64,000 nucleotides of DNA from an uncultured Bacteroidales bacterium (GTDB lineage Bacteria; Bacteroidota; Bacteroidia; Bacteroidales; F082). The position numbers and the translations under genes were made by a program. Where the stretch lies: positions 62,001 through 126,000 of the forward strand of contig CAJOIS010000001.1 in assembly GCA_905234645.1 (NCBI GenBank), in the 5' to 3' direction. Below are positions 3,832 through 35,180 of the stretch, one piece after another. A model generated the notes under the pieces. It was given only the letters and a program-made list of their open reading frames with translations, searched no databases and had not been told where the DNA came from. Numbering within the stretch: position 1 is the first letter of the stretch; each line of letters opens with the position of its first letter.

Positions 3832-3851
3832 AACATAAAAAGAATATATAA

Positions 3852-6800
3852 GTGATGAATTATATGAACAAGTCGAGTATCAATTTGAGACGCAGAACAA
3901 TTCTCCTTTTGGCTTTGCTGCTGGCAGGCGGCATTGCCTCGGCACAAACCCCCACACCTAGAGTCACCATCAAAGGCGATGTCTTTGGCGGCGGTAATCT
4001 GGGTGTCGTGAAAAATGTCAGTACTGGGACTGGGACGACTATCTCGGTGTCGAGGATCGACTCCACCACCGTGATCTTCAATGGTGGCCCCAACGACGTC
4101 ATTGAAGGCACAGTCTATGGCGGCGGCAAAGGCGTTTGCTACGATGAGACGAAGGGCCTGGTGGAAGGCAATGCCACGGTTGTCATGAAAGGCGGCTTGG
4201 TGAAACGCAGTATCTATGGCGGCGGCGAAATGGGCTCGGTGGGTACTTTCACCGAGTACTATAACACGGCAACCAACGGTCACCTCGCGGGCGAACCTAA
4301 GACCTGCTACACTGGTACTGGCTTGACCAAAGTGCTCCTCAGCGGCGGACAAGTGGGCCTCCTCAACACGATGATGCATACGCCAGAAAACGCTGACGAC
4401 GACTTCGGCTACGTCTTCGGCGCCTGTAGGGGAGAGGCTGACTCCATCACGAACTACAACCCCAATTACGATCCCCAACTTAACCCCAACGCTCCCTTCC
4501 AAAACAAGGTCTGCGTGTCGGCAGTGTGCAACAAGTCTGAATTGGAGATTAGCGGCAGGACGGTCATCGTGGCTTCCGTCTATGGCGGCAGCGAGAACGG
4601 CTTGGTGATGGACGGCACCCATGTGAAGATGAGGGGCGGCCAAATTGGTATCGGTCACTATACGACCACTGAAGGTGAGGTGACTACCCACCATTGGGAT
4701 AATCCTTATTTGGGTCCAGGTTGGGATGAAGGAGAGAACGCCAAGTGGAATTTGGCAGTTCCAAAAATACAGAATGGCACCATCACGGATGATAACATCA
4801 CTGAGTGGGGCTTCCATGGCTGTCAAGCATGGCCTTTCGTGTCTCCTTACAATATTTTCGACCCCTTCTACGGAGAGCCTGATCCGCAATACGACCCCTT
4901 AAACCCCAATCCGCTCCATCCGACTCCTACTTATGAACCTGAAAACAGTCAGAATGGTAGCGGTTCCAACGGTCAGGCCGACTTCGGCAACCTGTTTGGT
5001 GGCGGATGCGGCTTCTATCCCATAAGACCCGGTGTTTGGAGACGCTCGGCTGGCCGTGTGTGGGGCGATGTCGTTCTCGATATCGAGGGCGGCCACATCC
5101 TCACCTCAGTCTATGGCGGCAATGAGACCACCGACGTGATCGGTAAGGTGACCATCAATATGAGTGGTGGCACCATCGGTGTGCCGCGTACCCATGCTGA
5201 CCTCAATGATTGCCCGAACAGCGGCAACCTCTATGGCGCTGGCAAGGGCGACCAACGTGTTTGGGCCAACAAGTGGACCGACGTGAATGAGACGGAAGTC
5301 AACATTACTGGTGGCTCCATCTTCGGTTCTGTTTTTGGCGGTGGTGAAGACGGTCACGTGCTTGGCGATACCAAGCTGACGATGAGCAACATTGTGGCCG
5401 ACGCAGCCTATCACAACGCCCATCCTGAGGTGGCCGAGGGTACGGTTCTTTCGAGCCCCACCGTCGGCACTTGGGGCTTCACCGGCTACGACGGTAACGT
5501 CTTTGGTGGTGGCCGTGGCTTCTCGCCCGATGCCCTCACCGCAGGTGCCGTGTGCGGCAATACCGAAGTGAACCTCACGGGCGTCACCATCGTCGGTTCC
5601 GTCTTCGGTGGCGGACGTAACGGTTCGGTGGGTATCGAGCTTCGCGATGCCAACGATCCTTTGTATGGCCAAATGCCAGAGGGCGACCGTGGTCATACCA
5701 AGGTTACGATCACCGACTGCATCATCGGTAATGACTACGAATCGAAACTCCACCGTTTCGCTACCACCCAAGGTGGTAATGTGTTTGGCGGTAGCTTGGG
5801 TTCCATCAAGCTGTTGATTTCCGATGAAGTCAATCCCTTATGGCCTATGGCCGCCAAGGTGAAGAGCACCGAAATCGAGATTAACGGCGCCAATACCATC
5901 ATCAAGAACAATGTGTATGGCGGATGCGGTTACGGCTCTGTGGATGGAAACACGACAGTGACCGTCAAGAACGGCACCATCTGGCGCAACGTCTACGGCG
6001 GCGGACTGGGTAGCGACGACGACCGCGAGGCTATGGCGGCGAACTTCATTAGCCTACAAAACAATCAGACGAGCACGCTTTCGGTGAAACCCATGCGTTG
6101 CGCAGGCCGTGTCGAGGGCAACACCAACGTCTACATCCAAGGCGGTTGGGTGAAGAAGAGCGTCTATGGCGGCGGCGAGTTCGGCTCGGTAGGCTTCTAC
6201 GCGAGCGAACCTGTCCAGCATCCCGAACCTACCGATTGGAGTGTCGTCACTACAGGTTCACCCACCCACCTCAGCTGGCCCGTGGGCTTCGAATATGTGG
6301 AAGGCACCGGCACGACGAACGTCAGTATCACAGGCGGCCGTATCGGCATCACCGGAAAGGACTACATGGGCCCGTGGAATGCGGCTGGCAATCCTATTTA
6401 CTATACCTACACTCCGATTTATGGTGATTCAGAACATCCCGAGACCATCACTGGATACCAAGAAGTCGAGCATGAGTATAACCTCAACGACTTTACCAGC
6501 GGTAAAGATGGTGGTGGCGTGAAAGCCCTGAAGGAAGCCCGCGAGGACAACGGCGATGTGTATGGTGCCGGCAAGGGCGAGGCGGGTGCCCGTCACAGAA
6601 TGGCTACCCTTTGCAATGTGGACAATACGGTGGTTACCATCAACATCGACCAAGAAACCTCTGATGCCACCCCCGACAACTACAAACCGGCCAAGACTTC
6701 CGGACTCTATTTGCGTGAGAATGAAGATAAGGTATATGATTTTATCTATCAATTCCTTCCCACCTATAAAACTGACATTGTTGCCGGCGAAGAGAATTGG

Positions 6801-9800
6801 AAAACGTATGCCTCGCGTGCTTGTATCACCGGTGCCCTCTACGGCGGCGGCGAGAACGGCCACGTCAATACCAACACCAATGTCACCCTTACCGAGGGTC
6901 TTGTCGGCCACAACCTCTATGGCGGCGGCAAGGGTAGCGATACCTATAAGGAAACCCTTTATCCTTGGGAAGAGGATGGGAATCATCCCGGTAATTACAT
7001 CTACCATTACGATCAACCCTATCTCGCAGACATCACCAGCATCACCGCCGGTAAGGTGTACGGCGACACTTACGTCACCGTGAATGGTGGTTATGTGGTG
7101 CGCAACGTGTACGGCGGCGGCAACCGCGCCTCCGTGGGTAAGGCCAACTACGCCAGCGGCCCTGGCGACTACTATCCCAACGGCTACGGCGAGGCATGGA
7201 CTGCTACAACCCAGCAAGAAACACAAGCCCTCCTGGCCAATTCGGGTCACACCTATGTTTATATTAATGGGGGTCGGATTGGCACTGTCAATGGCCTGAA
7301 GGACGACTTCCCCACGGGTAACGTCTACGGCAGTTGCCGTGGTGAAGCGGCAGACCCCAGCGTGCCTGCCAAACTCAGCCCCCGTTTCTTATTCTCCCCG
7401 GAGTTCTTCCTCGGCTATACGAACCACACCTATGTCCGCATCGGCGACCCGATCAATTCTAACAGCAACCCGCGCGTTTACGGTTCGGTATACGGCGGTG
7501 GTGAAGACGGTCACGTCCGTTGGGACACCCATGTGGACATCAACAAAGGTGAGATTGGCAATGCGTATAATGATGACAACATAGCCTCGGTGGAAACCGG
7601 TGACATGAACAATGTCCAATGGCTGGCACGCGGCAATGTCTATGGTGCCGGCTCGGGCTTGGGCAAGTTTAAAGCTAATGACGACGATCCTGGTGCCTAC
7701 AACTACGCTTCCGGTTCGGTGACGCAAAACACCGAAGTCAACATCAACGGCGGCGTCTTGCACCGCAACGTGTATGGTGGCGGCTCGTTGGCTGCCGTGG
7801 GTCCGTTGAGAATCTTCCAACCCGCTGAACCGACCAAGGAACAGTCCTGCAATCAGGTCAACATCAATACGACCGTTGGCACGGAAGATGAGTTCAGAGC
7901 TGGCTACGGCGGCTATGTTTACGGCGCCGGTCGTGGTGTTGATGAAGACGGAGTTGACTTGTCGAAATTCGCCACCAGCGCCAATACCGAAGTCAACTTG
8001 GGTCCCAACGCCTTGGTATATGCCAATGTGTATGGTGGCGGTGAGTTGGGTCAGGTGAGATGGAATACCGAGGTCAACCTGAATGGCGGCACGGTCGGTT
8101 TGCTGGATTATGAGAAGGAGGAAGGCTCCGATATCTACACATCTGTGACCCACGTCAACGACTGCGGCCGTCTATTCGGCGGCGGCAAGGGCCTCCTCTC
8201 CGACCGCGACGCGGCCTTGGCGCACGGCAACACCAACGTCACCATTAGCAGCGGTAAGGTACTCAACAACGTCTATGGTGGCGGTGAAGTGGCCAGCGTG
8301 GGCGATCGTACTATCACCCAAGAACATTCGATTCCTGAGGACGAAAATTCACCTATGGTGACTACTGGCATCACCCCTGTGGCAGGCACAGGCTTGGCCA
8401 AGGTGACCATCACTGGCGGTGAGGTTGGACCTGCACCCAAAGTAGAAGGCTCCTACAACATCCCGATTGCCTTGAACAGCCAGGACGGCTACGTGTTTGG
8501 CGGCGGCAAGGGTATCGGCGACGACCCATTGGACTATACCAGTACGCCTCCTCATCCTTCAGGACGGTATTGGCAGTTCGCCGATGTCAACTACACCAGC
8601 GTCATGATTGGCGACCCCAATCCTGAAGTGACGACGGGTCCCCGCATCTGGGGTTCGATCTTCGGCGGTGCCGAGGACGGCCACGTGCTGGGCAACGACA
8701 CAGTGCGCCTCGTCAAGGGCTTGATCGGTACCAATGGTACCACCACGTGGGACGGTAACATCTTCGGCGGTGGCCGTAACTACCATCATAAGAATTTCTC
8801 GGCCGGTTATACGGGCGGCAACATTCTCGTCGAGATGACGGGTGGCCAAATCCTTGGCTCCATCTTCGGCGGTGGCCGTTTGGCCATCACCGGTATCAGC
8901 CCCATGGGCATCAAGCGTGATGGCACCTCCTGCTGGACCTATGATACGGAAAACACCAACACCGGTAAGATCTACGTCCGCGTGAAAGGCGGTGTGGTGG
9001 GTAACGAAAAGCTCATCGAAGAATGGACTTCCAGTACCATGGGCGATGTCTATGGCGGCGGCAAGGGTACTATGGAAGGCCTTGCTATTTATGATGATGA
9101 AGGACATCCAACCCACGACCCGGCTGCGGCCCTGCTGTTCTCGCTGGCTAGAGAGACCCATGTGATTATTTCTGACTCCATCAGTGATGCTGGTGACCTG
9201 GTCTCCAGCCCCGTCATCCTCGGCTCCGTCTTCGGCGGCGGCGAGGTGGCCAACGTGGGTAACTACGGCTGGACCCAGAGCGGACTCTCTTTCGAGAACA
9301 TCCACTTGGTCTCCGACGGTAAGTCTTATGTCACTGTTGACGGTGGCACCATCGGTGCTACCACTGTCAACGGCCATGCAAGCAAGGCGCAGATGCGCTA
9401 CGAACTGGCCTCTACTGCCAACGACGGCAACTACACCCTCAAATACAACGACGACCGCGGCCACGTGTTTGGCGGCGGTGAAGGACTCTTCGACAATCCA
9501 CAGAACTATGCCACCAATGTGAATGTCAATCCGACAGGTACCACTAACGGTGCCCACGCCATGAATCTTATCGACGTGATGGCCACCGTGGACGAAACCG
9601 AGGTGACCATCTCGGGCTCGGCCTTCGTGAAGGGTTCGGTCTATGGTGGCGCCATGAACGGCCACGTGCTGCACGACACCAAGGTGGTCGTGGCGGGCGG
9701 ACAAATTGGTGCCGGCTATAACCATGCCACCAATGAGGAACAAGCCAAATATACGGAAGACCAGTTCTTCAACCCGCTTGACAATAGAAATTTCTTAGCC

Positions 9801-12800
9801 GACTATTCAGACATTCTTGAGAGTAAGGCCTTGCTTGAATGCTACCAGTGGGAATACGACTCGATGAGCGTCCGTCCTTTCGACCTGAAACTCATTAAAG
9901 AAGGGTATGAAAACGATGAGTACACTTATTATCCCACCGATGGTAAGACTTGGTTCGGCAACGTCTTTGGCGGCGGTTCGGGCTACTATCCTTACTTTAG
10001 AGAAACTTCTACTGGCTCTGGCGTATATGAGCCCCATTGGAACCGCGATTGCGGTAAGGTGTACGGCAACTCCACCGTGGAGATCACCGGAGGCCACATC
10101 CTGACCAGTGTGTATGGCGGTAGCGAAATGACCGACGTGGGTCATTTCACATACGATGCTGATGGCGGCCACCCTGTTTCGGGTGGTACTGCAACCGTGA
10201 CGATGAGCGGTGGCACCTTGGGCGTGCCGCGTACCTTGGAGCAGATCAAGGCTCACCCCGTCACCTGCTACCTCTTCGGTGCAGGCAAGGGCGACCCGCG
10301 TACGGATTTCAATACCAATACCAACAGCAGTTACGCCGATGTTACGGTCAAAGGCGGCACCATCTATGGCTCTGTGTTTGGTGGTGGCGAAGACGCCCAC
10401 ATCATCGGCGACGCCAAGGTGACGATCAGCAACTTCGTGGCCGACGCAGCCTATCACGCCCTCCATCCCGAGGTGGCCGTGGGTGCTTTGGTGAGTCCCA
10501 TCATCGGCACCACGGGACATTCCTACGTCGATGGTAACATCTTCGGTGGTGGTCGTGGTTTCACGAGTGAGGCCCTCACCGCCGGTGTGATCAGCGGCAA
10601 CGTGACAGTGAACATCGGCGGCGGCACCATGCTGGGCTCCGTCTATGGCGGCGGTCGTCTGGCTGCGGTGGGTACCTATCTGGTGCCTGCCAACCACGCG
10701 AACTACGGCAGGTTTATGCCTGATAATGCAAATGGTACGCACGGCCACATCGAAGTGAACATCACGGGTGGCACCATCGGCAACGACTATGAGTCCATCT
10801 ACACCCACCAGGAGCATACCACGAGTGGCAACGTGTATGGTGGCTGCATGGGTCGTCTCAAGAAAGTGAATGGTGACATCAACAATAGATGGCCTTTGTT
10901 TGCCGTGGCGCGCACAGCCAATGTCAGCATCAACCAAACCTCATCGGATGAGGGCAAACGCACCACCATCCGTGGCACGGTATATGGCGGAGGCGAGTTC
11001 GGTGTCATTATCGACACGACCTACGTTCACGTCAGCGGTGGCACCATCTGGGATGATGTGTACGGTGCCGGTCGTGGAAGTACCGACGAAACGGAAATCA
11101 CCTATACCGACCCGGAGACTCAAGCGTCGGTCACCACTACTGCCTTGAAGCGTTCGGCCCGTGTGTTCAGAAACTCCCATGTCCTCGTCGATGGCGGTTG
11201 GATCAAGAGGAGCGTGTATGGCGGCGGCGATTTGGCCTCGGTAGGTTCGATTTCCGATTTTACCCCGCACAATGGCGCAAATGATAACTACGCCATCAGC
11301 TGGCCCTTTGCGTTTACTTTTGCAGAGGGTACCGGTAGGTCAATGGTGGAAGTCAAGGGCGGCCGTATCGGCATCTCCGGCAAGGACTTCATGGGTCCCT
11401 GGACCGAAGCGGGCATTCCTTTGATTGACCTGGGTGACGGTAATGGATACGTCCAATATAACGGCAGTGACAGCCACAAGAAAGCCCTCAAGGCGGCCCG
11501 TGAGGACAACGGCGATATCTTTGGCGCTGGTGAGGGCCGACCGGGCGACACCTGGACCTATCCCCACCTGGCCAATGTGGACAATTCAATAGTTAGAATT
11601 GAATACCCTGCTGCCATTGATGAGGCTGTACTTCCGGAAAACTTCAAGCCGTATGACCAGGACTTTCAATCCACCTGCTTCTACAACTTGGAGGATTGGC
11701 CGACCTATGGCACGACGCAGTGCATCACCGGTTCCGTGTATGGCGGCAGTGAGAACGGTCACGTCAACGACTCCGCTTACGTCAACCTCAGGAGCGGTCT
11801 TGTCGGCCATGGCATCTACGGTGGCGGCAAGGGCTCGGGCACATACACTGTGCATTATGAACCCGAAGGCGAAGATCCTTACGATGAAGAGTATTACTGC
11901 ATCACTTCCGGTAAGGTGTTTGGCAACACCCACATCCTCATCGAGGGCGGCCGCGTGGTGCGTAGCGTCTTTGGCGGCGGCAACGCAGCCTCGGTAGGTA
12001 AGGCCAACTTCCTGGGCTATGGCGAAACGGGTACTCCTATTGCCAACAATGGTCGCAGCTGGGTCGAAGTCAAGAGAGGCACTTTGGGTATGTTGCCGGT
12101 CGATAAATCCAAACCTGACGACGTGATCAAGGACAACATTCCTTACGGTTCCGTGTTTGGCGGCGCCCGTGGTTTGGTTGATGCGAATTGCGACGTCGAA
12201 GGCAGTGAGGAATCGAGGATGAGCTATGTCAGCTCTACCAAAGTCATCATTGGCGACAAGGACGGCGGTCCCACCCTCTATGGTTCTGTCTATGGCGGAG
12301 GCCAGGACGGCCACGTGCGCCATACCACCGACGTCACGATTAATAATGGTACGATTGGCCTTGCGTTCGTGAATCCCGAGACGGCTGCCACCACGGTGGG
12401 TAGCGACGATCCCGACTCCGAATACTGGACCACCCGTGGTAACGTGTTCGGTGGCGGCTCGGGTATCAGCACCTACGGTGACAATGATGACCAATACAGC
12501 CAATATGCCGGTAGCGTTTTCGAGACTACCAATGTCACCGTCAAGGGCGGTACCATCCACCGCAACGTGTATGGCGGCGGCAACCTTGCCCTTGTGGGCA
12601 GCAGTCTCACCGAAGGCAACATCACTGCTGGCGAAGACGGCAAATCCCTGAACCGTGCCAGGGTCACCATCATGGGCGGCCAAATCGGTGTCGGTACTGA
12701 TGTCAACGGAACCTATACCGCTTCCTCAGGTTCGGGCAACGGAGGCAAAGAGGACAATGAGCCTGAGCACTTCACCTACGGCGGTAGCGTGTTTGGCGGC

Positions 12801-18800: not shown

Positions 18801-21800
18801 CCCGAGAAATGGAGCGAAATCTTCGAAGACGAGTACGGCGCAGGTCGTAACGCCTTCCGTGGCTCGGTCTTCGGCGGCGGTAAGGGTTCTGATACCATTG
18901 TCCGCCTCGACTTAACCAAGCCCGAATACCGTTATAGCCGTATGGCTGGCCAAGTGTTCGGCAGCACCAACGTCAACATCAGTGCCGGTACGATTTACGG
19001 CATGGTGTATGGCGGCGGCGCTATTTCGAATGTTGGTAAGGTCACCTATGACAACAACACTGGTGCTGTTACCGCCGTCACAGGTGGCGCCTGCAATGTT
19101 ACCATCACAGGCGGTACCTTAGGCAGTGACAATGGTGCAACGAACATCGACGACAACACCATTGGCCTGAACAACGGTAATGTGTTCGGCGGCGGTCTCG
19201 GTCGTGTGGGTGCTCCCGAAAGCTCCATTGTGAACGTCTCGTACGCAGGTAGCACCAAGGTCGAAGTCAAGGACGGTGCCCACGTCCCAGGCAGCGTGTT
19301 TGGCGGCTCGGCCAACGGCCACGTGATGGGCGACTCCCATGTCATCATCGACGGCGAGGAGACGGTCATCGGTACCCCTGGTAGGGGCGGATGGCACAGC
19401 AACGTCTATGGTGCAGGCGGTGGACAACACCGTTATAATATTGTGAGGACAAAAATTGATCCTGTCACTCATGAACCGATAATAAACTCACAAACTAATC
19501 AACCAGAAACAGAAACCATCAGACACTTGAGTATCACCTCGGGTCGTGTGTTCGGCAACACCAAGGTCGAAATCAAGAATGGTACGGTGCTTCACAATGT
19601 CTATGGCGGCGGTGCCATCGCTTCGGTGGGTACTTACAATATTTCTGGTACTGATGTTTCCGTTGGTGCAAACACCGGTAAGTCTGAAGTCTTCGTCAAG
19701 GGCGGCACCATCGGTACCAATGGCGACAACAACGGTATGGTGTACGGCTCGGCCCGTGGCATTATCTGCAATCCTGCTGCCTCGGCTTATCCTGAGTGCT
19801 TCTTGGACAGCCTGGCGTATGTGGCTAACTCCGAAGTCACCATCGGCACTGCAAACGGCGGCTTTGGCGACCTCAAAGTGAACGGCTCCGTGTATGGTGG
19901 TGGCGAGAACGGCCACGTGTACCAGAAGGCCAAGGTGGATGTCTATAGCGGCACCATCGGCTGTACGGCCGGTGAGTATGCTACTGCCACCAATTCTACT
20001 TTAACAGGTTACGACCCGACATGGTTGAAGAAGAAGTTCCCGTATCGCGGCAACGTCTACGGCGCAGGTTGCGGTACCGACACTTACGATCCTGACCACG
20101 ACACGCTGTCCTTCAGCAAAGGCGCTGGTCTGGTCCAGGGCCAAACCGAAGTCAACATCCATGGCGGCTATATCAGCCGTAACGTGTATGGCGGCGGCGC
20201 CATGGCCACGGTGGGTGACATCACAGCCTTTGTTGAACGTCATAAGACGAACAATGGCCCATCGCTTGACACGCTCAGCTGGCCGATGCAACTCACCTTT
20301 GATGGAGAAGGAAATAACCAAACGGGTAAGGCTGTTGTCAACATTTATGGTGGCCACATCGGCACGGTGGCGGCTCCCGAAGCGGCTTCCGGCAATGTGT
20401 TCGGCTCGTCGCGCGGTAAGGCTGCCGACCGTTACAAGATGGCCTACTTCGCCAACGTCCGCGAGGCTCACGTCAATGTGAATTTCGACACTGCACCTGA
20501 AGGCAACACGTTTGATGAAGGAACTGTCGACTGCATCGTGGGTTCGGTGTATGGCTCAGGCGAGAGCGGCCACGTGTATGAGGACACCTACGTCACCATA
20601 GAGAACGGCCTCATCGGAGGTTCCGTGTTCGGCGGCGGCGATGGTACCGAGTTATATAAAGATGTGCTGTTGGACGGTACTACCAACGCACCTTATCCAG
20701 CCAACGTGCGCAGCATCACTGCTGGTAAGGTGTATGGCAACACCAACGTCACCATCAGTCAGGCATCAGGCAAAGCCACCTACATCAAACACAACGTGTA
20801 CGGTGGAGGCAACTTGGCCTCGGTGGGTAAGGGCAACTATTTCGGTTACGGCGAGGGTGGCGACGAAAGCACCGATGGACTCTGCACCGTGGAAATCACG
20901 GGCGGCACCATCGGCACCAACGGTTACATCGCTGCGAACGAAACCGTGCTCAACGGCTTTGTGTTTGGTTCGTCGAAAGGCACCACCTATAAGAATTTCA
21001 CCCAGGAGGAGCGCTACAAGTACACCCGCGACTTCTTCCTTGGCTATGCCAACAGTACCAATGTCACCATTGGTGGTACCACGGTGAAAGGCTCGGTGTT
21101 TGGCGGCGGCAATGACGGCCATGTGCGTTTGTCCACTATTGTCAACATCAACGAGGGCAGCGTGATTGGTGTGGCATACGATCCTAATGCTGGTTTGGGT
21201 CAACCCACTGCCGACATTTGGAAGTATCGCGGCAACGTGTACGGTGCCGGTAGAGGTGTCGACAGAATCGAAAGCACCAACGGCTATTGCTTCTCCGCAG
21301 GTTCCGTCACGCGCTACACGACGGTCAACGTCAATGGCGGTACCATCCACAACAATGTGTATGGCGGCGGATCCTTGGCCACTGTCGGCCCGCCTGAAGG
21401 CTATACTGACGAATCGCTCTGCACGGTCAATATCTACAACGGTAACATTGGTACCCAAACGGATGTGACCACTTACAGCTACGGCGGTAATGTCTTTGGC
21501 TCCTCGCGCGGTGAGCTTGGTGGTGGAGAGACTGCTCTTCTCAACCTTATGGCTTCGGCCAAGGAAACCTACGTGAATATAGGTTATCCGAATGGAACTG
21601 GCAATCCGCAGGTTTATGGCTCCGTCTTTGGCGGCGGCGATAACGGCCACGTGAACACGCATACCACCGTTTGCGTCAATGCGGGCCATGTCGGCTTCAA
21701 CGGCCAGAGTGCCACTAACACCTATAGCGGCAATGTGTTCGGCGGTGGTAATGGCACCGACACGGGTACTAATCAAGATGGTATTGTCAAGGGCCACACG

Positions 21801-24800
21801 AGAGTGTTCGTCAAGGGCGGTACCGTTCACCGCGATGTCTATGGCGGTGGCAACACCAGCATAGTGACCGCTGAACGTGTGGTCACGATTGAGGGTGCCA
21901 ACACTGTTGTCAAGGGCGATGTGTATGGCGGTTCCAACAACGGCATCGATGCCAAGGCCTACACCAGCCTGAAGACTGTGAACGTGCGCGGCGGCCAGAT
22001 CAATGGTAATGTCTTCGGCGGCAGCCACAATGCCAAGGAGAGCAATGCCGACGATGCTCAGGATAAGTGGTCCGGATTCGTCAACATTACGGGCGGCATC
22101 ATCGGCCAAGATGTGTTTGCTGCCGGTAACGGTGGCGACGTGAAGGGTTCGCTTTGCGTCAACATCGGTAAGGAAGCCGTCGTCCATGCGCCTACCTATG
22201 TTAATTTCAATGCCCCGGGTGGCCCTAACACTGACAATCCCAGTGCCAACCAGTACTATAACGTCAAGGAGGATGGAACGACCTACAATGACTTGAATGA
22301 GTCTACTGAGGATGACCTTCCGATTGGCAAGCTGATTGTTCACGGTGATGTGTACGGTGGTTCACACCACTATGGCAACACCAACACTCCAAGCTGGAAC
22401 CACTACGATGTGAACGGCTTCAGCGTGGTGTTCCTCGATGGCGAGGGCTACGACACGGAGAATAATGAAACTACCAATACTTCGCTTATTGGCCAAACTG
22501 GCTGGAAGCCCTTCATGAACCTTGAAAAAGGTATCTATGGTAGTGGCAAGCAATGTGAGTCGGGACAACTCATTATGCCATACGGTCAATCGGAAGCCCG
22601 TGGCATCGTCATCAAGGATTACGGCCATCGTACCAACAATGCTGACAGCCAGATGACGGGCGCCACCCGTGACTTGACTACCATCCAGCGTGGCGGCATC
22701 GTGGTGCTCGACAACACCAATATCCACTTTACCGGTGCTGCCCCCATCAGCAGACCTGACTATACAACCAAGTATGCTGTGAGTAGAGCCAACTTGGGCT
22801 TCTATTGCCTCAATGGCAGCGGTATCGTGTTGGGTTCCAGCATGGCGAACGACTCGGTCATCATCGATTCCGTCAGGATTGTCAAGAGTATGTATCTGCC
22901 GGCAGGCGAGTCGGTATATCAGAATGTTTTGGGTGGTGCTTCACAAACCAACTGGGAGACCGTGGGCATCCAAGAAGACAACGGGACGGCCAAGTTGTAT
23001 CGTCTGACCAATACGGGCACTACGGACAATCCTGTGATTACACCCGTAGAATTGACGGCGGCACAGGAGAACGTCATTGTCTTCTACGACAAGTCGAAGA
23101 TGAGGGTGCGCTATAAGCAAGGCAATGAAACCATGTACGGCCAGTTGCAGGGCTTCTTCCGCATGAGTGCCGATCCTAATATCTATTATCCGGAAAACAT
23201 CACGGAGAGCTTTGCCTACGCCCGCCCGAAGATTACCGACGGCAGTCCTGAGCAAGGCAATGCGTCGGACGGCGGTTTCCTGAGCTACACCAGCTCCTAC
23301 AACACCTTCACCGACAATGGTGCGGTTTACACCAAGACGAAGCAGTATCCTTACCTCAACGTCCTGGATTTCAGCAAGGGCGACCGTACGGACTACCGTA
23401 TGTGGGTGAACGCCCCGATGAGCGGACCGCGCTGGTATGTGGACGGCACCCGTGGCTGGGGTCGCGATGAGTTGAAGAGCGTTGACAACCAGGCTGGCCA
23501 GTATCCTGACAAGCCGAAGAAGACCCTCTTCGGTAAGAACGGCACCGTTGGCACGGGTATCATCTCCGACTGGTATACGGATAATGATCACAAGTACCTG
23601 AATTTCGATTACACGAAGGACATCATCTATGTGGTTGGCGCTTTGTCGGCCCAAGATGAGCAGGAGATCTTGCGCAGCGCATCCTACGAAGTTGAAAATG
23701 AAAACTTGGTCTTGGTGCCTCATACAAATGTCCCGTTGAAACTCTATCGTTACCCGGGTGGCCATGTCATGAGCAATGGCTCGGTGGATAACACTAATGC
23801 TGCTACAACAACGGTTACTCCGACTTGGGGTGCCACAGGCGAGGCCGGTCCTGGCGCGAACTATGGTGCCATGCTCGACGTGCAAGGAAACCAGAGCGTC
23901 ACCTTGCAGAACGTGACCATGGATGGCTTGTATGGCTATACGACTACTCAGAGCGGCAATACCCCGTCGGAGGTGGAAACCCACATGATTCCTGCGAGCT
24001 TCAATCCGACGCTGACCACTGAGCCTCTGATCGTGACCCACGCCGGATCCACGCTCAACCTCAGCGAAGGCACCGAACTAAAGCGCGGCTACAACGGCAC
24101 GAGCCCGGATTGGTACGCCAATGCGTTCTACAATGACGCGACGTTGACAACGGGCCACCAAGGCGGCGCCATCTATGTGGACGGCAGCGTGAATAGCAAC
24201 GGCACGGATGCCGGCGCTCAGGTGAACGTGAGCGGCAAGGTGTTCATCACCGACAACCATCAAGGCGTGACGGTTGGTGACGCCACTCAGGTCATCGCCA
24301 GCAACGTGTATCTGCCCACCTTCGCCAAGTACATCAACATCACGGGTGCCTTGGATGCAACCTCGCGTATCGGCGTGACCAGCCCGAGGGCCAATGAAGG
24401 CGACGACTATACGTACAACACCTTGTCGCCTGTGGCCAAGGCTACTAACGCTACGATGGCAGCAAACACTTGGGCGCAGTGCAATGTCTACGATGACCAA
24501 GGCTGGTTCTTCGTCAATGGCCACAACCTTGGCGAAAACGGTCAGAGAACCACTTACTACAATCCGTCGAGCACCAGCAAGACCGATAATATGAATGAGT
24601 ATTTGTATCTCGGTTGGACCTGGGCCAATGTCGTCCGCAGCAATCCTGGTACGGACAGCTATGAGGAAACCCTGTCTGGCGAGACTGTGACGGGTGTCAC
24701 CGTCAAGGACGAGAAAGGCTTGGCTTGGCTCATCAGCAAGGTGAACGGCATGAATGATCAGACCGCCTTCACGCAGGCCGTTCCGGTTGAGCAAACCGGC

Positions 24801-27719
24801 GACGCCAATCTGCTGAAGTACGTGTGGGCACCGATTGGAACCACGGCACATCCGTTCAACGGTACGTTCGACGGTAAGGGCCATACCATCTCCAACCTTG
24901 AGATCAGCTACCTCGGCGATGGCGACCGTATCTACGAGTACGACAACTACGGCTTGTTTGGCAACGTCAACAACGGCACCATCAACCGTACCTTCGTCGT
25001 GAGCGGCACGATTAGCCCTGTGGGTGTGGCCAACATCGGAGGTCTGGTGGGTAAACTCGAAGGCACGACCGCCTTACTCAAGAACAGTGAGGCTGCTGTC
25101 CAAGTTACTTATCCCGTCAGTAATAGTACCGACAAGAACTACACTGTGGGTGGCTTGGTTGGCCAAATGATAGGTGGCGACATCCACTCGTCCATGGCTA
25201 TGCCTGACATCGCCCTCAATGCCTATAGCGTTGCGGGTGGTTTGGTGGGCATCACGCAAGCCACTGAGGGTGACGCTCCCACGACTCCGACCATCAAGAA
25301 CTCGTTTGCCAATGCAAAGATTGCCGTTGGCAATACCACCGACTATGGCGCAGGCGGTCTGGTAGGACACAGCGAGCAGTTGAGTATGGAGAACTGCTAT
25401 TCCCATAATAGAGTGGCCACCACCCAGCCCAACTACGGCTCGTTGGTATCGAGTGGTAATGTTGCCAACGTGCAGCGTTGCTATGGCGAGCGAGACCTCA
25501 ATCATACCGCTACAGGTAACATCAACAACTGCTCCACCTACACGCCTGTCATCAATTCCGACGAATTGGGTTATATGTACGCCGACAACAAGGTTGTGGC
25601 CGACAATATGACCATGTTCGAGGTGCTCAACAAGAAGGTTTGGGCGCTGAACAAGGCTGCCAATGACAGCACCTACGCGCACTGGGCACGTCCTGCCTTG
25701 TCGGAGATCAACAACGACCTGCCTGTGTTGCTGCTGGGTGAGTTCGACGGTTCGGTGAAATACCAAGGCACCTTCCGTAGCGTGGGTACCTACGCTGGCG
25801 GTGCTGCCTTGCAGTATGGTGGTCCTGTCCGTGACGGTGATACTTCTGATGACTTTGACGAAGTGAATGCCGCACTCACCCGTACTAAGGCAACCGACAA
25901 CGACTACCTCTACATCTATGGTGACGTGACCGAGACCATAGCTGGCAGCATCACCCAGACCAAGGTGAGCATCAACGAACATGCCTCCATCGAACATCCA
26001 GGTGCGTTGGGTACATCGTCGTCGAAAGCCGATTATACCGATACCTATGTGGGCATCAGCTTCGACAACTCCTGCGGTCATGCCGTTTCAACGCCGGGCG
26101 TCAACGGATTGGGTGGTCAACTCTTGCCGCGCGACTGGCACATGTTCTCCACGCCGCTGAGCAATGCTCCGTTGGGATTTGATTATCATGTAGGCACGAC
26201 GAACACGAACTCGGGCGCTTACGAGGGTGGAGACTACAGCAACACGAACTTCTATAACAATCCATGGGTACCCACCTCCATTGAATTCAGTTGGCTGAAC
26301 AATGGTGGCCAAGGCGATAACCGTTATTGGATGTCGACGACAGCTGACGGTTACTTCCCGACGTCTCGTGGCACTTTGTTCAACAACGATCTTGAGTCGA
26401 TCTTCGTGTCCAACTCGGACGAGCATCCTTCGAGCGACGTCTATCGCTATCCTTATGGTATGGACTTCTATACTTGGTACGAGCCGGAATACCACTGGAT
26501 CAACTTCAAGCGTAACGGCCAGAACCACTGGCACAGTGATGAGGAAGCTCATGTCCATAAGCATTTGGACTACTTTGGCAGCGCAATGAACGTGAACGAA
26601 GAGACCCTGATTCCCGCCAAGGGTTACATGGCTTCCATCGCCACGCCGACCTTGCTGCAAAGCCACGGCACCCTGAATGCTGGCCCCCAGAACATCGCCT
26701 TGACGAAAGCAGGCAAGTACCTCAAGGGCTGGAACCTCGTGGGTAACCCGTATCATGGCTACATCGACTTCAGCAAGTTTGCCGCTGCGGCAATTGAAGG
26801 CGGCAATGGTGGGGTCCTGTCTGATGATTTGAGCCAAGTGGGAGGAACGGGGAATGTGCCGTTCTATGTCATCTATGACGCCGACGAATACCAACATGGT
26901 CATGAAGGAAGTGGATTCCTCTACTATCCGGATGGCGGTTCGCAAAATGGTGCATACGCTGGACGTTACATCCATCCGCACCAAGGCTTCTACGTCCAAC
27001 TGAAGGAAACCGCGAGTAGCAATACCTTGAAGTTTACCGAAGACATGGTGGTGCCTCGTAGCGAGGTCGGTGAGAGCCACTTCCGCGAATGGCAGCCCAG
27101 CTACCCGTTGATCAACCTCTACTTGAGCAGCGACCATGGCTGCCGCGACGTGACGGTCATCGAGCTCGAGCGTCCCGAGTGGGGTGGAGCCACCAAGATC
27201 AAAGATCTGCGTGTCGGTAACGGTCTCTTCTACGGTCACCACGAAGACGACAACTATGCCGCCATGTTCGTCAAGCAAGGCACGGAACGCGTACCGTTGC
27301 GCTTCGAGGCCAAGGAGGACGACATCTTCACCATCAGTTGGGAGACGGCTAACGGTAACTTCCATAGCATGTATCTCATTGATAACATCTTGGGCTTCCA
27401 GTATGATATGATTCGCAACAACAGCTACACCTTTGAAGGCCATAAGGACGATTACTGGTCGAGATTCTACATCGTCTTCGATGTCACCGACGTCGAGGAG
27501 CATACGGACCAGCCCTTCGTCTTCTTCGATGGTTCGGAATATGTAGTCACCGGCGACGGCGATCTCGAATTCATCGATGTCAACGGCCAGATCCTGTGGC
27601 GTTCCTACGTGAGCGGACAGACCCGTGTGGGAATACCTAAGGTGGCTGCTGGAGTGTATATGTTCAGACTCGTCAACTCAGATGATGTACAAGTCCAGAA
27701 AGTAGTTGTGAAAAAGTAA
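3852..27719 (+). CDS. Giant (~7955 aa) secreted beta-solenoid-like repeat protein with GLUG-like motifs and C-terminal T9SS type A-like sorting domain
   Basis: Single uninterrupted ORF. N-terminal signal peptide (INLRRRTILLLALLLAGGIASAQ); repeated GNVFGGGxxxxVxGNTxVxIxGGxI units; GGLVGxxxG motifs around 25030-25520; C-terminus GVYMFRLVNSDDVQVQKVVVKK. Actual start may be MNKSS at 3864. Confidence 0.93.
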   Translation: MMNYMNKSSINLRRRTILLLALLLAGGIASAQTPTPRVTIKGDVFGGGNLGVVKNVSTGTGTTISVSRIDSTTVIFNGGPNDVIEGTVYGGGKGVCYDETKGLVEGNATVVMKGGLVKRSIYGGGEMGSVGTFTEYYNTATNGHLAGEPKTCYTGTGLTKVLLSGGQVGLLNTMMHTPENADDDFGYVFGACRGEADSITNYNPNYDPQLNPNAPFQNKVCVSAVCNKSELEISGRTVIVASVYGGSENGLVMDGTHVKMRGGQIGIGHYTTTEGEVTTHHWDNPYLGPGWDEGENAKWNLAVPKIQNGTITDDNITEWGFHGCQAWPFVSPYNIFDPFYGEPDPQYDPLNPNPLHPTPTYEPENSQNGSGSNGQADFGNLFGGGCGFYPIRPGVWRRSAGRVWGDVVLDIEGGHILTSVYGGNETTDVIGKVTINMSGGTIGVPRTHADLNDCPNSGNLYGAGKGDQRVWANKWTDVNETEVNITGGSIFGSVFGGGEDGHVLGDTKLTMSNIVADAAYHNAHPEVAEGTVLSSPTVGTWGFTGYDGNVFGGGRGFSPDALTAGAVCGNTEVNLTGVTIVGSVFGGGRNGSVGIELRDANDPLYGQMPEGDRGHTKVTITDCIIGNDYESKLHRFATTQGGNVFGGSLGSIKLLISDEVNPLWPMAAKVKSTEIEINGANTIIKNNVYGGCGYGSVDGNTTVTVKNGTIWRNVYGGGLGSDDDREAMAANFISLQNNQTSTLSVKPMRCAGRVEGNTNVYIQGGWVKKSVYGGGEFGSVGFYASEPVQHPEPTDWSVVTTGSPTHLSWPVGFEYVEGTGTTNVSITGGRIGITGKDYMGPWNAAGNPIYYTYTPIYGDSEHPETITGYQEVEHEYNLNDFTSGKDGGGVKALKEAREDNGDVYGAGKGEAGARHRMATLCNVDNTVVTINIDQETSDATPDNYKPAKTSGLYLRENEDKVYDFIYQFLPTYKTDIVAGEENWKTYASRACITGALYGGGENGHVNTNTNVTLTEGLVGHNLYGGGKGSDTYKETLYPWEEDGNHPGNYIYHYDQPYLADITSITAGKVYGDTYVTVNGGYVVRNVYGGGNRASVGKANYASGPGDYYPNGYGEAWTATTQQETQALLANSGHTYVYINGGRIGTVNGLKDDFPTGNVYGSCRGEAADPSVPAKLSPRFLFSPEFFLGYTNHTYVRIGDPINSNSNPRVYGSVYGGGEDGHVRWDTHVDINKGEIGNAYNDDNIASVETGDMNNVQWLARGNVYGAGSGLGKFKANDDDPGAYNYASGSVTQNTEVNINGGVLHRNVYGGGSLAAVGPLRIFQPAEPTKEQSCNQVNINTTVGTEDEFRAGYGGYVYGAGRGVDEDGVDLSKFATSANTEVNLGPNALVYANVYGGGELGQVRWNTEVNLNGGTVGLLDYEKEEGSDIYTSVTHVNDCGRLFGGGKGLLSDRDAALAHGNTNVTISSGKVLNNVYGGGEVASVGDRTITQEHSIPEDENSPMVTTGITPVAGTGLAKVTITGGEVGPAPKVEGSYNIPIALNSQDGYVFGGGKGIGDDPLDYTSTPPHPSGRYWQFADVNYTSVMIGDPNPEVTTGPRIWGSIFGGAEDGHVLGNDTVRLVKGLIGTNGTTTWDGNIFGGGRNYHHKNFSAGYTGGNILVEMTGGQILGSIFGGGRLAITGISPMGIKRDGTSCWTYDTENTNTGKIYVRVKGGVVGNEKLIEEWTSSTMGDVYGGGKGTMEGLAIYDDEGHPTHDPAAALLFSLARETHVIISDSISDAGDLVSSPVILGSVFGGGEVANVGNYGWTQSGLSFENIHLVSDGKSYVTVDGGTIGATTVNGHASKAQMRYELASTANDGNYTLKYNDDRGHVFGGGEGLFDNPQNYATNVNVNPTGTTNGAHAMNLIDVMATVDETEVTISGSAFVKGSVYGGAMNGHVLHDTKVVVAGGQIGAGYNHATNEEQAKYTEDQFFNPLDNRNFLADYSDILESKALLECYQWEYDSMSVRPFDLKLIKEGYENDEYTYYPTDGKTWFGNVFGGGSGYYPYFRETSTGSGVYEPHWNRDCGKVYGNSTVEITGGHILTSVYGGSEMTDVGHFTYDADGGHPVSGGTATVTMSGGTLGVPRTLEQIKAHPVTCYLFGAGKGDPRTDFNTNTNSSYADVTVKGGTIYGSVFGGGEDAHIIGDAKVTISNFVADAAYHALHPEVAVGALVSPIIGTTGHSYVDGNIFGGGRGFTSEALTAGVISGNVTVNIGGGTMLGSVYGGGRLAAVGTYLVPANHANYGRFMPDNANGTHGHIEVNITGGTIGNDYESIYTHQEHTTSGNVYGGCMGRLKKVNGDINNRWPLFAVARTANVSINQTSSDEGKRTTIRGTVYGGGEFGVIIDTTYVHVSGGTIWDDVYGAGRGSTDETEITYTDPETQASVTTTALKRSARVFRNSHVLVDGGWIKRSVYGGGDLASVGSISDFTPHNGANDNYAISWPFAFTFAEGTGRSMVEVKGGRIGISGKDFMGPWTEAGIPLIDLGDGNGYVQYNGSDSHKKALKAAREDNGDIFGAGEGRPGDTWTYPHLANVDNSIVRIEYPAAIDEAVLPENFKPYDQDFQSTCFYNLEDWPTYGTTQCITGSVYGGSENGHVNDSAYVNLRSGLVGHGIYGGGKGSGTYTVHYEPEGEDPYDEEYYCITSGKVFGNTHILIEGGRVVRSVFGGGNAASVGKANFLGYGETGTPIANNGRSWVEVKRGTLGMLPVDKSKPDDVIKDNIPYGSVFGGARGLVDANCDVEGSEESRMSYVSSTKVIIGDKDGGPTLYGSVYGGGQDGHVRHTTDVTINNGTIGLAFVNPETAATTVGSDDPDSEYWTTRGNVFGGGSGISTYGDNDDQYSQYAGSVFETTNVTVKGGTIHRNVYGGGNLALVGSSLTEGNITAGEDGKSLNRARVTIMGGQIGVGTDVNGTYTASSGSGNGGKEDNEPEHFTYGGSVFGGGKGFESDEFQDYCNVDSTNVQIQGSNVLGEVYGGAENGHVVYDTRVFVNGGTIGTIGNTGYDGNVFGGGKGSGEGIASTIDDPNPDAEEPTYEYVTLNLYKHCGRVGGNTYVKVTDGYIKGSIYGGGSLALTGVNEEGEFPYDPQHPEQWAIADHGNTFITVKGTSTMLGTDDADDLLHTDASVGDIFGSGKGDIDNYDNVLAGRTTNATVNVSGSPTIHGTVFGGGEMAGVGWWGTDGKFFGNADHGMTGKTNVTINGSPVIGTATEFTLTPAANPDDNWWTMFENGKIVHSCTGNVFGGSQGDVYPKFGHWVSMGRSREAEVNINLGDNGLIRGTVYGGGEQGSVIGDTKVTIDGTGTIGTHITTGTGAGTGNDYYYGGVFAAGYGSDDPYENDDEIHPNDSTIHRRDVLHLDWTPGVMAGRVYGDAQADILGCTILGGIYGGGERAYVGYERSNTYGNVTVNIGSRSVVNSGQGGSKDDPTYTYSGNADLVHSDVFGANKYAGTPFGNTYVNVYQTKHTAANTCPTLPAQYDTWTHDLMTANTAGNSPFTQAQQYAIHSVFGGGDRSHYIPHQNKHAHVHVYTCLNTIEDLFGGSNAADIGAHNNTYETNANLTVDGGRFNRVFGGGNGLSATQAANIHGAAITYIDGGLINQLFGGSNNFGNIHDIQLDIADTPSGCNQYVDETYGGGNEAPHDGDVVVNVTCDQGLIGHVFYGGANHGAINGNLTVNVAGGKFDLVFGGSKNGSVNYYTQNYVNDYNALHLVNPQQPGVYVDGFTPITTNDGGNITLNLYGGKIYEAAYGGNDEGGIIKGKITINVLDNISGDCKLDLQDLYGAGRNAAYAPVTPGDEPQPITDQLWPEVNVIHGTVKGNVFGGGHGATATVTSNPVVNIGYDASMAQYVSTNPLDVNYFEDPATNATATVLGSVLGGGNQAQVVGNTNVYVRKDNTIIGDKLNFAQRYVTDRNFHEVINFGNVFGGGFGFEGENPTSDDVNLGKVTGNTNVTINGGTVRHNVYGGGRMATVGGTANVTVEGTALIGPKKADLTQSTDAEKLIMKEKLGLDHTPSDAEFINYSFKYLGGNEGSVYGAGRGKCEPAYDNFAYVNATNVIIGGNAQVVSGVFGGAENGRVTTDTEVTIGRQNTDNDAPIIGGIPYHDAGTYTVPKNSDVVSEVSSIDGEYMGVSRTISNADSETAEDIYGVGACIFRGGVFGGGRGTDTYEVDHIPTFNRTAGWVKGNSNITINKGAIFGKVYGGGTIASVGTFAYTNIPANPTTHTPAYDSISGYTSGTGKATVIVNGGQIGVGGINDGDVFGGGLGVAMQPGHELTRLAYVGETDVQIKPGAVVKSNVYGGAASGHVQGEAHVTVDGATIGVQGQYGWHGNVYGGGGGTERYIKVNAQGQPITVNNQPVQHMSISAGRVFGSTYVTINQTDKNYPTVITNSVYGGGAAASVGGYRLGNPQYVGANAIIDQNVKCQVDITGGTIGVDGNDNGMVYGSARGFVKNDKATDNFDTFADSLSYAVQTIVNIGTKTVSEDNPPVITYGGDAVIKGNVYGSGDNGHVVLNTNVNIYGGTVEGNVFGGGSGDEKYLDENDKEQYNAYSGDVSGNTNVNIYRGTILKNVYGGGEIASLMNPYTSPVSYGTSNVTIEGGVIGVELIGTPQEQIDGGIVFGGCYGLAGDNYEGYSNVGNANVTIKGGTIYNAVFGGGDNGHVKGNTVVAISEDVSTIPTIIGQKLTMRELIVDSLALARTHIYTGSVLGGGRGTGTIAGGMHSEITGRVYGNATVTVSGGTIRHAVYGGGGLASVGTYTLGDDGLPVFTSGGTTTVTVNGNALIGPKKEDLLIGLLDPEDPYYIEEMGRARTALGIPDGQQFTSDDYRNVAFRLLGLNEGWVFGAGCGLASNEFDDPTHPHYNLYHDDLNKLTFNKNTIVNIGGNAQIAGVVFGGGENGRVMTSTEVNITGGVIGGIPLHGGGAYTVPAVSSTMDGEYKDVELDFPEKWSEIFEDEYGAGRNAFRGSVFGGGKGSDTIVRLDLTKPEYRYSRMAGQVFGSTNVNISAGTIYGMVYGGGAISNVGKVTYDNNTGAVTAVTGGACNVTITGGTLGSDNGATNIDDNTIGLNNGNVFGGGLGRVGAPESSIVNVSYAGSTKVEVKDGAHVPGSVFGGSANGHVMGDSHVIIDGEETVIGTPGRGGWHSNVYGAGGGQHRYNIVRTKIDPVTHEPIINSQTNQPETETIRHLSITSGRVFGNTKVEIKNGTVLHNVYGGGAIASVGTYNISGTDVSVGANTGKSEVFVKGGTIGTNGDNNGMVYGSARGIICNPAASAYPECFLDSLAYVANSEVTIGTANGGFGDLKVNGSVYGGGENGHVYQKAKVDVYSGTIGCTAGEYATATNSTLTGYDPTWLKKKFPYRGNVYGAGCGTDTYDPDHDTLSFSKGAGLVQGQTEVNIHGGYISRNVYGGGAMATVGDITAFVERHKTNNGPSLDTLSWPMQLTFDGEGNNQTGKAVVNIYGGHIGTVAAPEAASGNVFGSSRGKAADRYKMAYFANVREAHVNVNFDTAPEGNTFDEGTVDCIVGSVYGSGESGHVYEDTYVTIENGLIGGSVFGGGDGTELYKDVLLDGTTNAPYPANVRSITAGKVYGNTNVTISQASGKATYIKHNVYGGGNLASVGKGNYFGYGEGGDESTDGLCTVEITGGTIGTNGYIAANETVLNGFVFGSSKGTTYKNFTQEERYKYTRDFFLGYANSTNVTIGGTTVKGSVFGGGNDGHVRLSTIVNINEGSVIGVAYDPNAGLGQPTADIWKYRGNVYGAGRGVDRIESTNGYCFSAGSVTRYTTVNVNGGTIHNNVYGGGSLATVGPPEGYTDESLCTVNIYNGNIGTQTDVTTYSYGGNVFGSSRGELGGGETALLNLMASAKETYVNIGYPNGTGNPQVYGSVFGGGDNGHVNTHTTVCVNAGHVGFNGQSATNTYSGNVFGGGNGTDTGTNQDGIVKGHTRVFVKGGTVHRDVYGGGNTSIVTAERVVTIEGANTVVKGDVYGGSNNGIDAKAYTSLKTVNVRGGQINGNVFGGSHNAKESNADDAQDKWSGFVNITGGIIGQDVFAAGNGGDVKGSLCVNIGKEAVVHAPTYVNFNAPGGPNTDNPSANQYYNVKEDGTTYNDLNESTEDDLPIGKLIVHGDVYGGSHHYGNTNTPSWNHYDVNGFSVVFLDGEGYDTENNETTNTSLIGQTGWKPFMNLEKGIYGSGKQCESGQLIMPYGQSEARGIVIKDYGHRTNNADSQMTGATRDLTTIQRGGIVVLDNTNIHFTGAAPISRPDYTTKYAVSRANLGFYCLNGSGIVLGSSMANDSVIIDSVRIVKSMYLPAGESVYQNVLGGASQTNWETVGIQEDNGTAKLYRLTNTGTTDNPVITPVELTAAQENVIVFYDKSKMRVRYKQGNETMYGQLQGFFRMSADPNIYYPENITESFAYARPKITDGSPEQGNASDGGFLSYTSSYNTFTDNGAVYTKTKQYPYLNVLDFSKGDRTDYRMWVNAPMSGPRWYVDGTRGWGRDELKSVDNQAGQYPDKPKKTLFGKNGTVGTGIISDWYTDNDHKYLNFDYTKDIIYVVGALSAQDEQEILRSASYEVENENLVLVPHTNVPLKLYRYPGGHVMSNGSVDNTNAATTTVTPTWGATGEAGPGANYGAMLDVQGNQSVTLQNVTMDGLYGYTTTQSGNTPSEVETHMIPASFNPTLTTEPLIVTHAGSTLNLSEGTELKRGYNGTSPDWYANAFYNDATLTTGHQGGAIYVDGSVNSNGTDAGAQVNVSGKVFITDNHQGVTVGDATQVIASNVYLPTFAKYINITGALDATSRIGVTSPRANEGDDYTYNTLSPVAKATNATMAANTWAQCNVYDDQGWFFVNGHNLGENGQRTTYYNPSSTSKTDNMNEYLYLGWTWANVVRSNPGTDSYEETLSGETVTGVTVKDEKGLAWLISKVNGMNDQTAFTQAVPVEQTGDANLLKYVWAPIGTTAHPFNGTFDGKGHTISNLEISYLGDGDRIYEYDNYGLFGNVNNGTINRTFVVSGTISPVGVANIGGLVGKLEGTTALLKNSEAAVQVTYPVSNSTDKNYTVGGLVGQMIGGDIHSSMAMPDIALNAYSVAGGLVGITQATEGDAPTTPTIKNSFANAKIAVGNTTDYGAGGLVGHSEQLSMENCYSHNRVATTQPNYGSLVSSGNVANVQRCYGERDLNHTATGNINNCSTYTPVINSDELGYMYADNKVVADNMTMFEVLNKKVWALNKAANDSTYAHWARPALSEINNDLPVLLLGEFDGSVKYQGTFRSVGTYAGGAALQYGGPVRDGDTSDDFDEVNAALTRTKATDNDYLYIYGDVTETIAGSITQTKVSINEHASIEHPGALGTSSSKADYTDTYVGISFDNSCGHAVSTPGVNGLGGQLLPRDWHMFSTPLSNAPLGFDYHVGTTNTNSGAYEGGDYSNTNFYNNPWVPTSIEFSWLNNGGQGDNRYWMSTTADGYFPTSRGTLFNNDLESIFVSNSDEHPSSDVYRYPYGMDFYTWYEPEYHWINFKRNGQNHWHSDEEAHVHKHLDYFGSAMNVNEETLIPAKGYMASIATPTLLQSHGTLNAGPQNIALTKAGKYLKGWNLVGNPYHGYIDFSKFAAAAIEGGNGGVLSDDLSQVGGTGNVPFYVIYDADEYQHGHEGSGFLYYPDGGSQNGAYAGRYIHPHQGFYVQLKETASSNTLKFTEDMVVPRSEVGESHFREWQPSYPLINLYLSSDHGCRDVTVIELERPEWGGATKIKDLRVGNGLFYGHHEDDNYAAMFVKQGTERVPLRFEAKEDDIFTISWETANGNFHSMYLIDNILGFQYDMIRNNSYTFEGHKDDYWSRFYIVFDVTDVEEHTDQPFVFFDGSEYVVTGDGDLEFIDVNGQILWRSYVSGQTRVGIPKVAAGVYMFRLVNSDDVQVQKVVVKK

Positions 27720-27735: not shown

Positions 27736-28002
27736 ATGAAAGATATGAAGAAACGAATCCTGGCAGCGGTCATGACTATCGGACTGCTTATGCCATGCCA
27801 AATGAACGCCCAAATCTTTCTCGATGATGAGGACCAAGGCGGATCTCGTGTCTCTATCCAGGAATGGGACGGTGGTTTGATCGTCCCATACCAAGCTAGT
27901 GACATCGATGCGTATGTCCCTTTGGGAAGCGGACTGCTGGTCATGGCCGGCTTAGGCGGAGCGTATCTTTTGGCCAAGCGGCACAAGGACCAAGAAGTTT
28001 GA
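27736..28002 (+). CDS. Small secreted protein with C-terminal TM plus basic tail
   Basis: Signal peptide MKKRILAAVMTIGLLMPCQMNAQ; C-terminal VPLGSGLLVMAGLGGAYLLAKRHKD; AGGAGG just upstream. Confidence 0.75.
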   Translation: MKDMKKRILAAVMTIGLLMPCQMNAQIFLDDEDQGGSRVSIQEWDGGLIVPYQASDIDAYVPLGSGLLVMAGLGGAYLLAKRHKDQEV

Positions 28003-28050: not shown

Positions 28051-28058
28051 TATATTTG
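28051..28058 (+). promoter_or_regulatory. Putative Bacteroidota -7 element (TATATTTG) upstream of acyl-CoA ligase
   Basis: Matches TAnnTTTG, ~31 bp before the ATG at 28090; -33 element not convincing. Confidence 0.4.
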
Positions 28059-34457: not shown

Positions 34458-35180
34458 ATGTCACAAAACAAGACAAGATTTCCAGGAATGGAAAATGCCG
34501 CAAACAATCCTTACAATCGGGATATGTTTGTCTCCAATGGCGATGATGAAATGAAAAGAAACGATCCAAAGGCGACTCGTTTTCCAGGAATAGAAAGTGT
34601 AGAAAACGGGCGGCAGGCCGAAGTTCCACATGACCCGATAGTTGGCTTCCTGTTCTCTGTGTCCAAAACTCCTTTTGGTGAGTATTGGCCATTATACATT
34701 GGAAAGAACACCATTGGCAGGAATACTGGTGACTCTGCGAATATGATTAACTTGCTTGAAGGCTCTGTTTCGAATGAACACGCTGCATTGGTGATTGAAC
34801 AATACACCAATCCCAACGAGACCGTGGCGGTTTTGGAAAACAAAGGTTCGAAGAATGGCACTTTTATCAACGGCAAACGTGTCATCTATGGGCGTACTGA
34901 AGAGTGCAAGAATGGTGATATCCTGCGTTTTGGGGGCAGTTATGAATGTATGTTGATTTTGTTTGATGTGAGGGAACTTGGGCTTAAGAAGGCCGAGAAT
35001 TTTATTTCAGTTGAAACTGTGGAAAGCAGTGATCCTTGGGACGAAGGTAATGATTCTCCCTATAAACCGAGCCGTCAGGATACTCCTTACTTCGACCCCA
35101 ACCAAACCTCGAAGGCTACCAACGCGATGAATGGCGAGCCTATGTTTGGAGGTAATAAGCACAAGACAGAGGCAATGTAA
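34458..35180 (+). CDS. FHA-domain protein with N-terminal TRFPGME/TRFPGIE repeats
   Basis: IGKNTIGRNTGDSANMINLLEGSVSNEHAAL...ENKGSKNGTFINGKRV FHA core. Confidence 0.9.
   Translation: MSQNKTRFPGMENAANNPYNRDMFVSNGDDEMKRNDPKATRFPGIESVENGRQAEVPHDPIVGFLFSVSKTPFGEYWPLYIGKNTIGRNTGDSANMINLLEGSVSNEHAALVIEQYTNPNETVAVLENKGSKNGTFINGKRVIYGRTEECKNGDILRFGGSYECMLILFDVRELGLKKAENFISVETVESSDPWDEGNDSPYKPSRQDTPYFDPNQTSKATNAMNGEPMFGGNKHKTEAM

Follow-up and report, generated by a model that had tools for sequence, protein, structure and literature searches.

The window analysed here, a stretch of 64,000 nucleotides from an uncultured Bacteroidales bacterium of lineage F082, encodes a giant protein that is real, conserved and lineage-restricted. 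It belongs to an unnamed family of coil repeats, bears a type IX secretion system (T9SS) tail, and would form a rod at the cell surface.

The giant gene and its coil repeat

Positions 3852–27719 of the forward strand form a single unbroken ORF of 7955 codons with no stop (∼840 kDa, pI 4.8), in agreement with the 23.9-kb ORF described in a first-pass annotation of this DNA. The start codon is GTG, and since ATG codons stand right behind it, at 3855 and 3864, the true start may lie 3–12 nt further 3′. Twelve residues separate the presumed signal-peptide cleavage site from the first coil motif. The features of the giant gene and its surroundings are as follows.

1..3831, + strand: 3′ part of a 3091-aa tail-less coil ORF whose start, at G000:C1:56556, lies 5′ of the window (product with a signal peptide, 54 coil motifs and, at the C-terminus, InlB B-repeats)
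3852..27719, + strand: giant coil protein (ORF reading, 7955 aa, pI 4.8)
3852..3944, + strand: signal-peptide-like N-terminus, ending in RRRTILLLALLLAGGIASA before Q (from the sequence; cleavage site presumed)
3981..22625, + strand: predicted solenoid region, ∼115 coil units of four types in repeating order, ∼200-aa super-repeat (motif count, alignment, AlphaFold2)
4569..7751, + strand: segmental duplication, copy 1, aa ∼240–1300 (self-comparison)
9549..12701, + strand: segmental duplication, copy 2, aa ∼1900–2950 (self-comparison)
22752..26456, + strand: non-repetitive C-terminal region (comparison of relatives)
24693..25481, + strand: GLUG beta-helix part with structural likeness to a portion of IgA1 (M26) proteases (Pfam, AlphaFold2, Foldseek)
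26457..27716, + strand: 420-aa C-terminal module common to many other T9SS proteins of the genus (profile search)
27546..27713, + strand: T9SS type A sorting domain TIGR04183 (above curated cut-off)
27736..28002, + strand: 88-aa putative partner protein with signal peptide, short acidic stretch and C-terminal VPLGSGLLVMAGLGGAYLLAKRHK (TM plus basic tail; profile searches)
28051..28058, + strand: TAnnTTTG element, the Bacteroidales −7 consensus, preceding the next gene (consensus match only)
28090..29859, + strand: AMP-binding (acyl-CoA ligase-like) gene (Pfam), a flank kept in relatives and outside the system

The source is a draft MAG (77 contigs, 84% complete), and an ORF of this kind might be an assembly artefact or a decaying gene. 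This is barely credible: the ORF contains no exact DNA repeat of ≥25 nt, so a collapse of short reads is unlikely, and many other genomes have intact giants built in the same way, the longest of 9577 aa. Moreover, dN/dS was 0.39 over 7381 codons between genomes G369 and G364 (0.13–0.39 by block) and 0.23 between G014 and G384; the giant gene is under purifying selection. A collapsed or broken ORF, a possibility raised at first pass, was rejected on these grounds.

The coil motif [VIL][FY]G[AGSC][GACSN] was matched 115 times between aa 44 and 6228, while shuffled copies of the protein gave a mean of 2.5 matches and a maximum of 7. Each unit starts with V/I-F/Y-G-G-G, continues through a loop of variable length, and ends in T-x-V-x-I-x-G-G-x-I-x-G-N. 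The shortest coils of the giant have 26 aa and the median is 50, the longer ones bearing long variable loops. A length of 26 aa marks a sharp lower edge: in seven giants, 27 units were of exactly this length and eight were shorter. Four kinds of coil (GHV, GxG, ASVG and SxRG) tend to succeed one another in fixed order, and the four-coil cycle makes up a super-repeat of ∼200 aa that aligns at ∼40% identity. The 'hundreds' of copies of a 20–25-aa rung initially proposed must thus be replaced by ∼115 longer coils in this higher-order arrangement. Self-comparison also revealed a segmental duplication ∼1000 aa long (aa ∼240–1300 versus ∼1900–2950, offset ∼1650 aa, 30–51% identity). When the coils were compared with Pfam, as the first-pass annotation had proposed for the rung, no family of Pfam or NCBIfam matched the coil region above its cut-off; a PDB sequence search with the coils returned nothing useful. 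As judged from these searches, the coil family is uncatalogued and unnamed.

Two super-repeats were modelled with AlphaFold2, using 41 aligned windows as input, which gave a mean pLDDT of 88.4 and a pTM of 0.92. In the model, short strands recur at the TxVxI part, at the same place in every coil. The strand pattern, the repeat and the confidence of the model together support the assignment of the coil region to the beta-solenoids, as had been anticipated before any structure was predicted. When Foldseek was run with this model, no match at E ≤ 0.001 was found in the PDB or in a viral library (best PDB E value, 1.5). Foldseek can do badly on solenoids; nevertheless, it did match IgA1-protease beta-helix structures from a far poorer model of the C-terminal region, which indicates that it can see beta-helices.

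The anchor end, the gene cluster and the small downstream protein

The last 1.7 kaa of the giant are non-repetitive, include the GLUG part and end in the T9SS tail. The whole C-terminal region has ∼1600-aa matches, at 45–57% identity, at eight loci in seven other genomes. The records containing the C-terminal module, found with a 15-row alignment, come nearly all from ruminant gut samples, with a few from horse faeces. The same module is present in giants of 3.9–4.1 kaa that lack coils (L034, L037 and L038). AlphaFold2 modelling of aa 6341–7535 yielded a pLDDT of 54 and only two usable parts. Both C-terminal features recognised at first pass were borne out: GLUG (PF07581) exceeds the Pfam cut-off once, in a single stretch within the C-terminal region only, and the tail scores 23.8 bits with TIGR04183 against a curated cut-off of 23 (29.4 bits in the genome search), the match to PF18962 of Pfam being sub-threshold. 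The source genome encodes ∼107 TIGR04183 tails and SprA (TIGR04189, 1939 bits); the GldM model TIGR03517 had no match anywhere, controls included, and so carries no information. The sorting tail and the presence of SprA in the same genome support a T9SS-dependent secretion of the giant.

The giant is the last large gene of a cluster of five same-strand genes, an apparent operon, that reaches 5′ of the window. The cluster spans ∼39 kb, or 1.5% of the genome assembly, with intergenic gaps of at most about 66 nt. The three upstream ORFs (1229, 759 and 3091 aa) specify proteins with signal peptides and 4, 14 and 54 coil motifs, respectively, in none of which a domain search found a T9SS tail. The 1229-aa protein, encoded by the first gene, has an M26 N-terminal match. 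Since a TAnnTTTG element stands before the gene that follows the 88-aa ORF, the cluster probably ends with the latter; a second such element, likewise a consensus match only, lies 86 nt before the first gene of the cluster (L009:428). Elsewhere in the window, positions 34458–54484 hold a low-GC run of same-strand genes (0.38–0.46 versus ∼0.55) for FHA proteins, two Ser/Thr kinases, and FHA/trypsin-like, WG-repeat and CHAT-domain proteins, which has the look of a signalling or defence-type cluster that was acquired. A gene for an AAA_14/DUF4143 ATPase is located at 56777–58051.

The 88-aa protein belongs to a family of ∼80–105 aa (L147–L166, L172 and L175–L178) whose members consist of a signal peptide, a short variable stretch, and an A-P-L/I-G-x-G motif (APLGSG) followed by a TM segment and a K/R-rich basic tail. 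Searched with a first profile, 30 of the 31 genomes examined from the genus carry the family, in as many as 19 copies, and 20 genomes from other families gave no match. With a broader profile, six genomes from other families proved to have one to three copies each. Eighteen of 20 sampled copies lie directly 3′ of a same-strand gene, and all 18 upstream genes pass TIGR04183; with ∼107 tails among roughly 2000 genes, chance alone would give about 5%, kinship being ignored in the sampling. Four copies in other families occupy the same position 3′ of T9SS-tailed genes. The short motif, TM helix and basic tail at the C-terminus recall PEP-CTERM and LPXTG-type tails, but all matches of the family to library families were below cut-off and no sorting enzyme was identified. 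No directly relevant paper came up in a literature search for small T9SS partners.

Relatives and chain ends

A super-repeat profile detected coil proteins in 30 of the 100 genomes sampled from the genus, that of the ruminant-gut 'bacterium F082', and, among 295 genomes of the order, in three genomes of one other Bacteroidales family. None besides the window's own appeared in 397 genomes of the phylum, and the viral contigs and plasmids searched held no relatives. The relatives have 3.8–9.6 kaa, and the order of the coil modules is retained from species to species. Residues 0–3800 of the giant aligned to the protein of G023, while aa ∼3960–5900 follow the N-terminal part of those of G384, G353 and G369; from these alignments the giant looks like a mosaic. 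The giants of G369 and G364 (L133–L136) are nearly identical over aa ∼1500–5250, while dS reaches 0.6–1.5 in the C-terminal third. This points to exchange by recombination, and it seems that the anchor end of the giants has been swapped in this way. A literature search for the coil family, or for F082 together with T9SS, found nothing direct.

The ends of the chains show a regularity of their own. In nearly all giants that begin with coils, the first [FY]GGG follows the presumed mature N-terminal Q at a distance of 7 aa, and tail-less proteins ending in coils stop 19–29 aa past their last motif (one exception at 47). In G014, G384 and L140, the C-terminal end of the upstream protein and the N-terminal end of the next one add up to 26 aa (19 + 7), the length of the minimal coil; the sums are longer in other relatives. 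In G014, the joined ends, VFGGGKEASVRGNAKVEVK plus QVKVHGN, read like one coil (compare coils of the VYGGGENGHVNTNTNVTLTEGLVGHN type). Within the genus, an adjacent upstream tail-less coil gene accompanies all 14 coil-first giants and none of the four giants that start with another domain of >1000 aa (L026, L028, L031 and L033), a difference with P about 3 × 10−4 if the genomes, which are related, were independent. In G330, of another family, the tail-less genes lie downstream. The placing of chain ends on coil boundaries in most relatives suggests, as a lead, an end-to-end assembly.

Two readings of these ends were weighed. One holds that the giant is a stand-alone T9SS adhesin or rod, that the upstream genes are independent paralogues generated by duplication and splitting, and that the matching ends are simply the natural start and stop of the fold. 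The signs of tandem paralogy and of segmental duplication are clear, giants that carry N-terminal domains have no such companions, and common descent could explain both the constant ends and the 14/14 versus 0/4 pattern. In the source genome itself, moreover, the junctions form no minimal coil: the first protein ends 28 aa past its last motif and the second starts with 13, while the third ends in InlB repeats. Against it stand the coil-boundary ends, the 26-aa sums in three genomes and the pairing itself, and we give this reading a chance only a little short of even. According to the other, giant chains would dock by completing a split 26-residue coil, only the base chain being anchored through T9SS, and T9SS cargo would have small signal-peptide/TM partners of an unnamed family across several Bacteroidales families. 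In this full form the composite rod is a tentative and somewhat unlikely proposal.

Proposed working of the rod

In the arrangement that we consider reasonably probable, the giant is an anchored T9SS solenoid rod and probable adhesin, extended by the upstream proteins and assisted by the 88-aa protein in the inner membrane. The giant would leave the cytoplasm by Sec and then cross the outer membrane via the type IX system, the sorting tail holding it at the cell surface. Its ∼115 coils would fold into one long, acidic, rigid beta-solenoid bearing variable loops, with a length of some 55 nm, assuming one coil with a rise of ∼0.48 nm per unit. Such a rod would most likely work as an adhesin. The three tail-less upstream proteins would extend the anchored giant from its free N-terminus, giving a multi-subunit rod; the proposal provides no outer-membrane route for them. 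As for the 88-aa protein, it probably sits in the inner membrane as a partner of the T9SS cargo encoded next to it, with a part in the handling or retention of that cargo.

Other roles for the giant fit less well. It might belong to a fimbria-like appendage or form the tip of one: in the other Bacteroidales family, coil giants stand beside an Mfa_like_1 (fimbrillin-like) gene at L143 (667–7021) and beside genes for lipoproteins similar by eye at L146 (13349–19541). However, no fimbrillin-like gene was recognised in the source cluster, and of the seven neighbours of fimbrial type that were tested, just one matched the Mfa_like_1 family, which makes this role improbable. It is very unlikely that the giant, instead of being structural, is a beta-helix enzyme, whether carbohydrate-active or a protease. 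The GLUG part resembles IgA1 (M26) proteases and the first cluster gene contributes its M26 N-terminal match, but the former spans ∼260 of 7955 residues; the HExxH catalytic motif is absent throughout the giant, no Pfam or NCBIfam enzyme family exceeded its cut-off, and the coils match no pectate-lyase-type structure. The identification as an enzyme was therefore rejected. The Gly/Asn/Thr-rich beta repeats might also recall a functional amyloid, a curli-like fibre, and curli subunits have been treated structurally as head-to-tail beta-solenoids (PMC10192328). Yet the giant is not a small subunit that polymerises with itself: it is a single chain of 840 kDa whose coils have diverged and are conserved individually, and it bears a T9SS tail. 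No evidence was obtained for the amyloid-like nature first suggested, which is extremely unlikely.

The preferred reading, an anchored solenoid rod, has partial counterparts among known systems. SprB of Flavobacterium johnsoniae is a T9SS adhesin of several hundred kilodaltons with a type B tail that serves gliding (PMC10202324); the giant resembles it as a very large surface protein with predicted T9SS export, but has a type A tail, an uncatalogued glycine-rich coil and tail-less companion genes. In Apilactobacillus kunkeei, consecutive genes encode Giant1–5, surface proteins of great size in which beta-solenoid parts are predicted (PMC12863079), a plan similar to that proposed here. Their solenoid, however, is short and N-terminal, is carried on alpha-helical repeats and has a match among solved structures, whereas the present giant is nearly all coil and no solved match was found for it. 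Curli and bactofilins arise by polymerisation of units that are beta-solenoids or extended beta structures (PMC10192328, PMC4372379), but their subunits are small and identical, while here giant, non-identical chains would join.

Among giant surface proteins of bacteria, this one brings in an uncatalogued coil family, whose fold is predicted with confidence and for which no solved relative was found. It makes testable the ideas that giant solenoids may arise from several gene products through split-coil completion, and that T9SS cargo may have dedicated small membrane partners. Since its relatives come almost wholly from ruminant gut genomes, the rod may matter in the colonisation of feed particles or of the gut wall.
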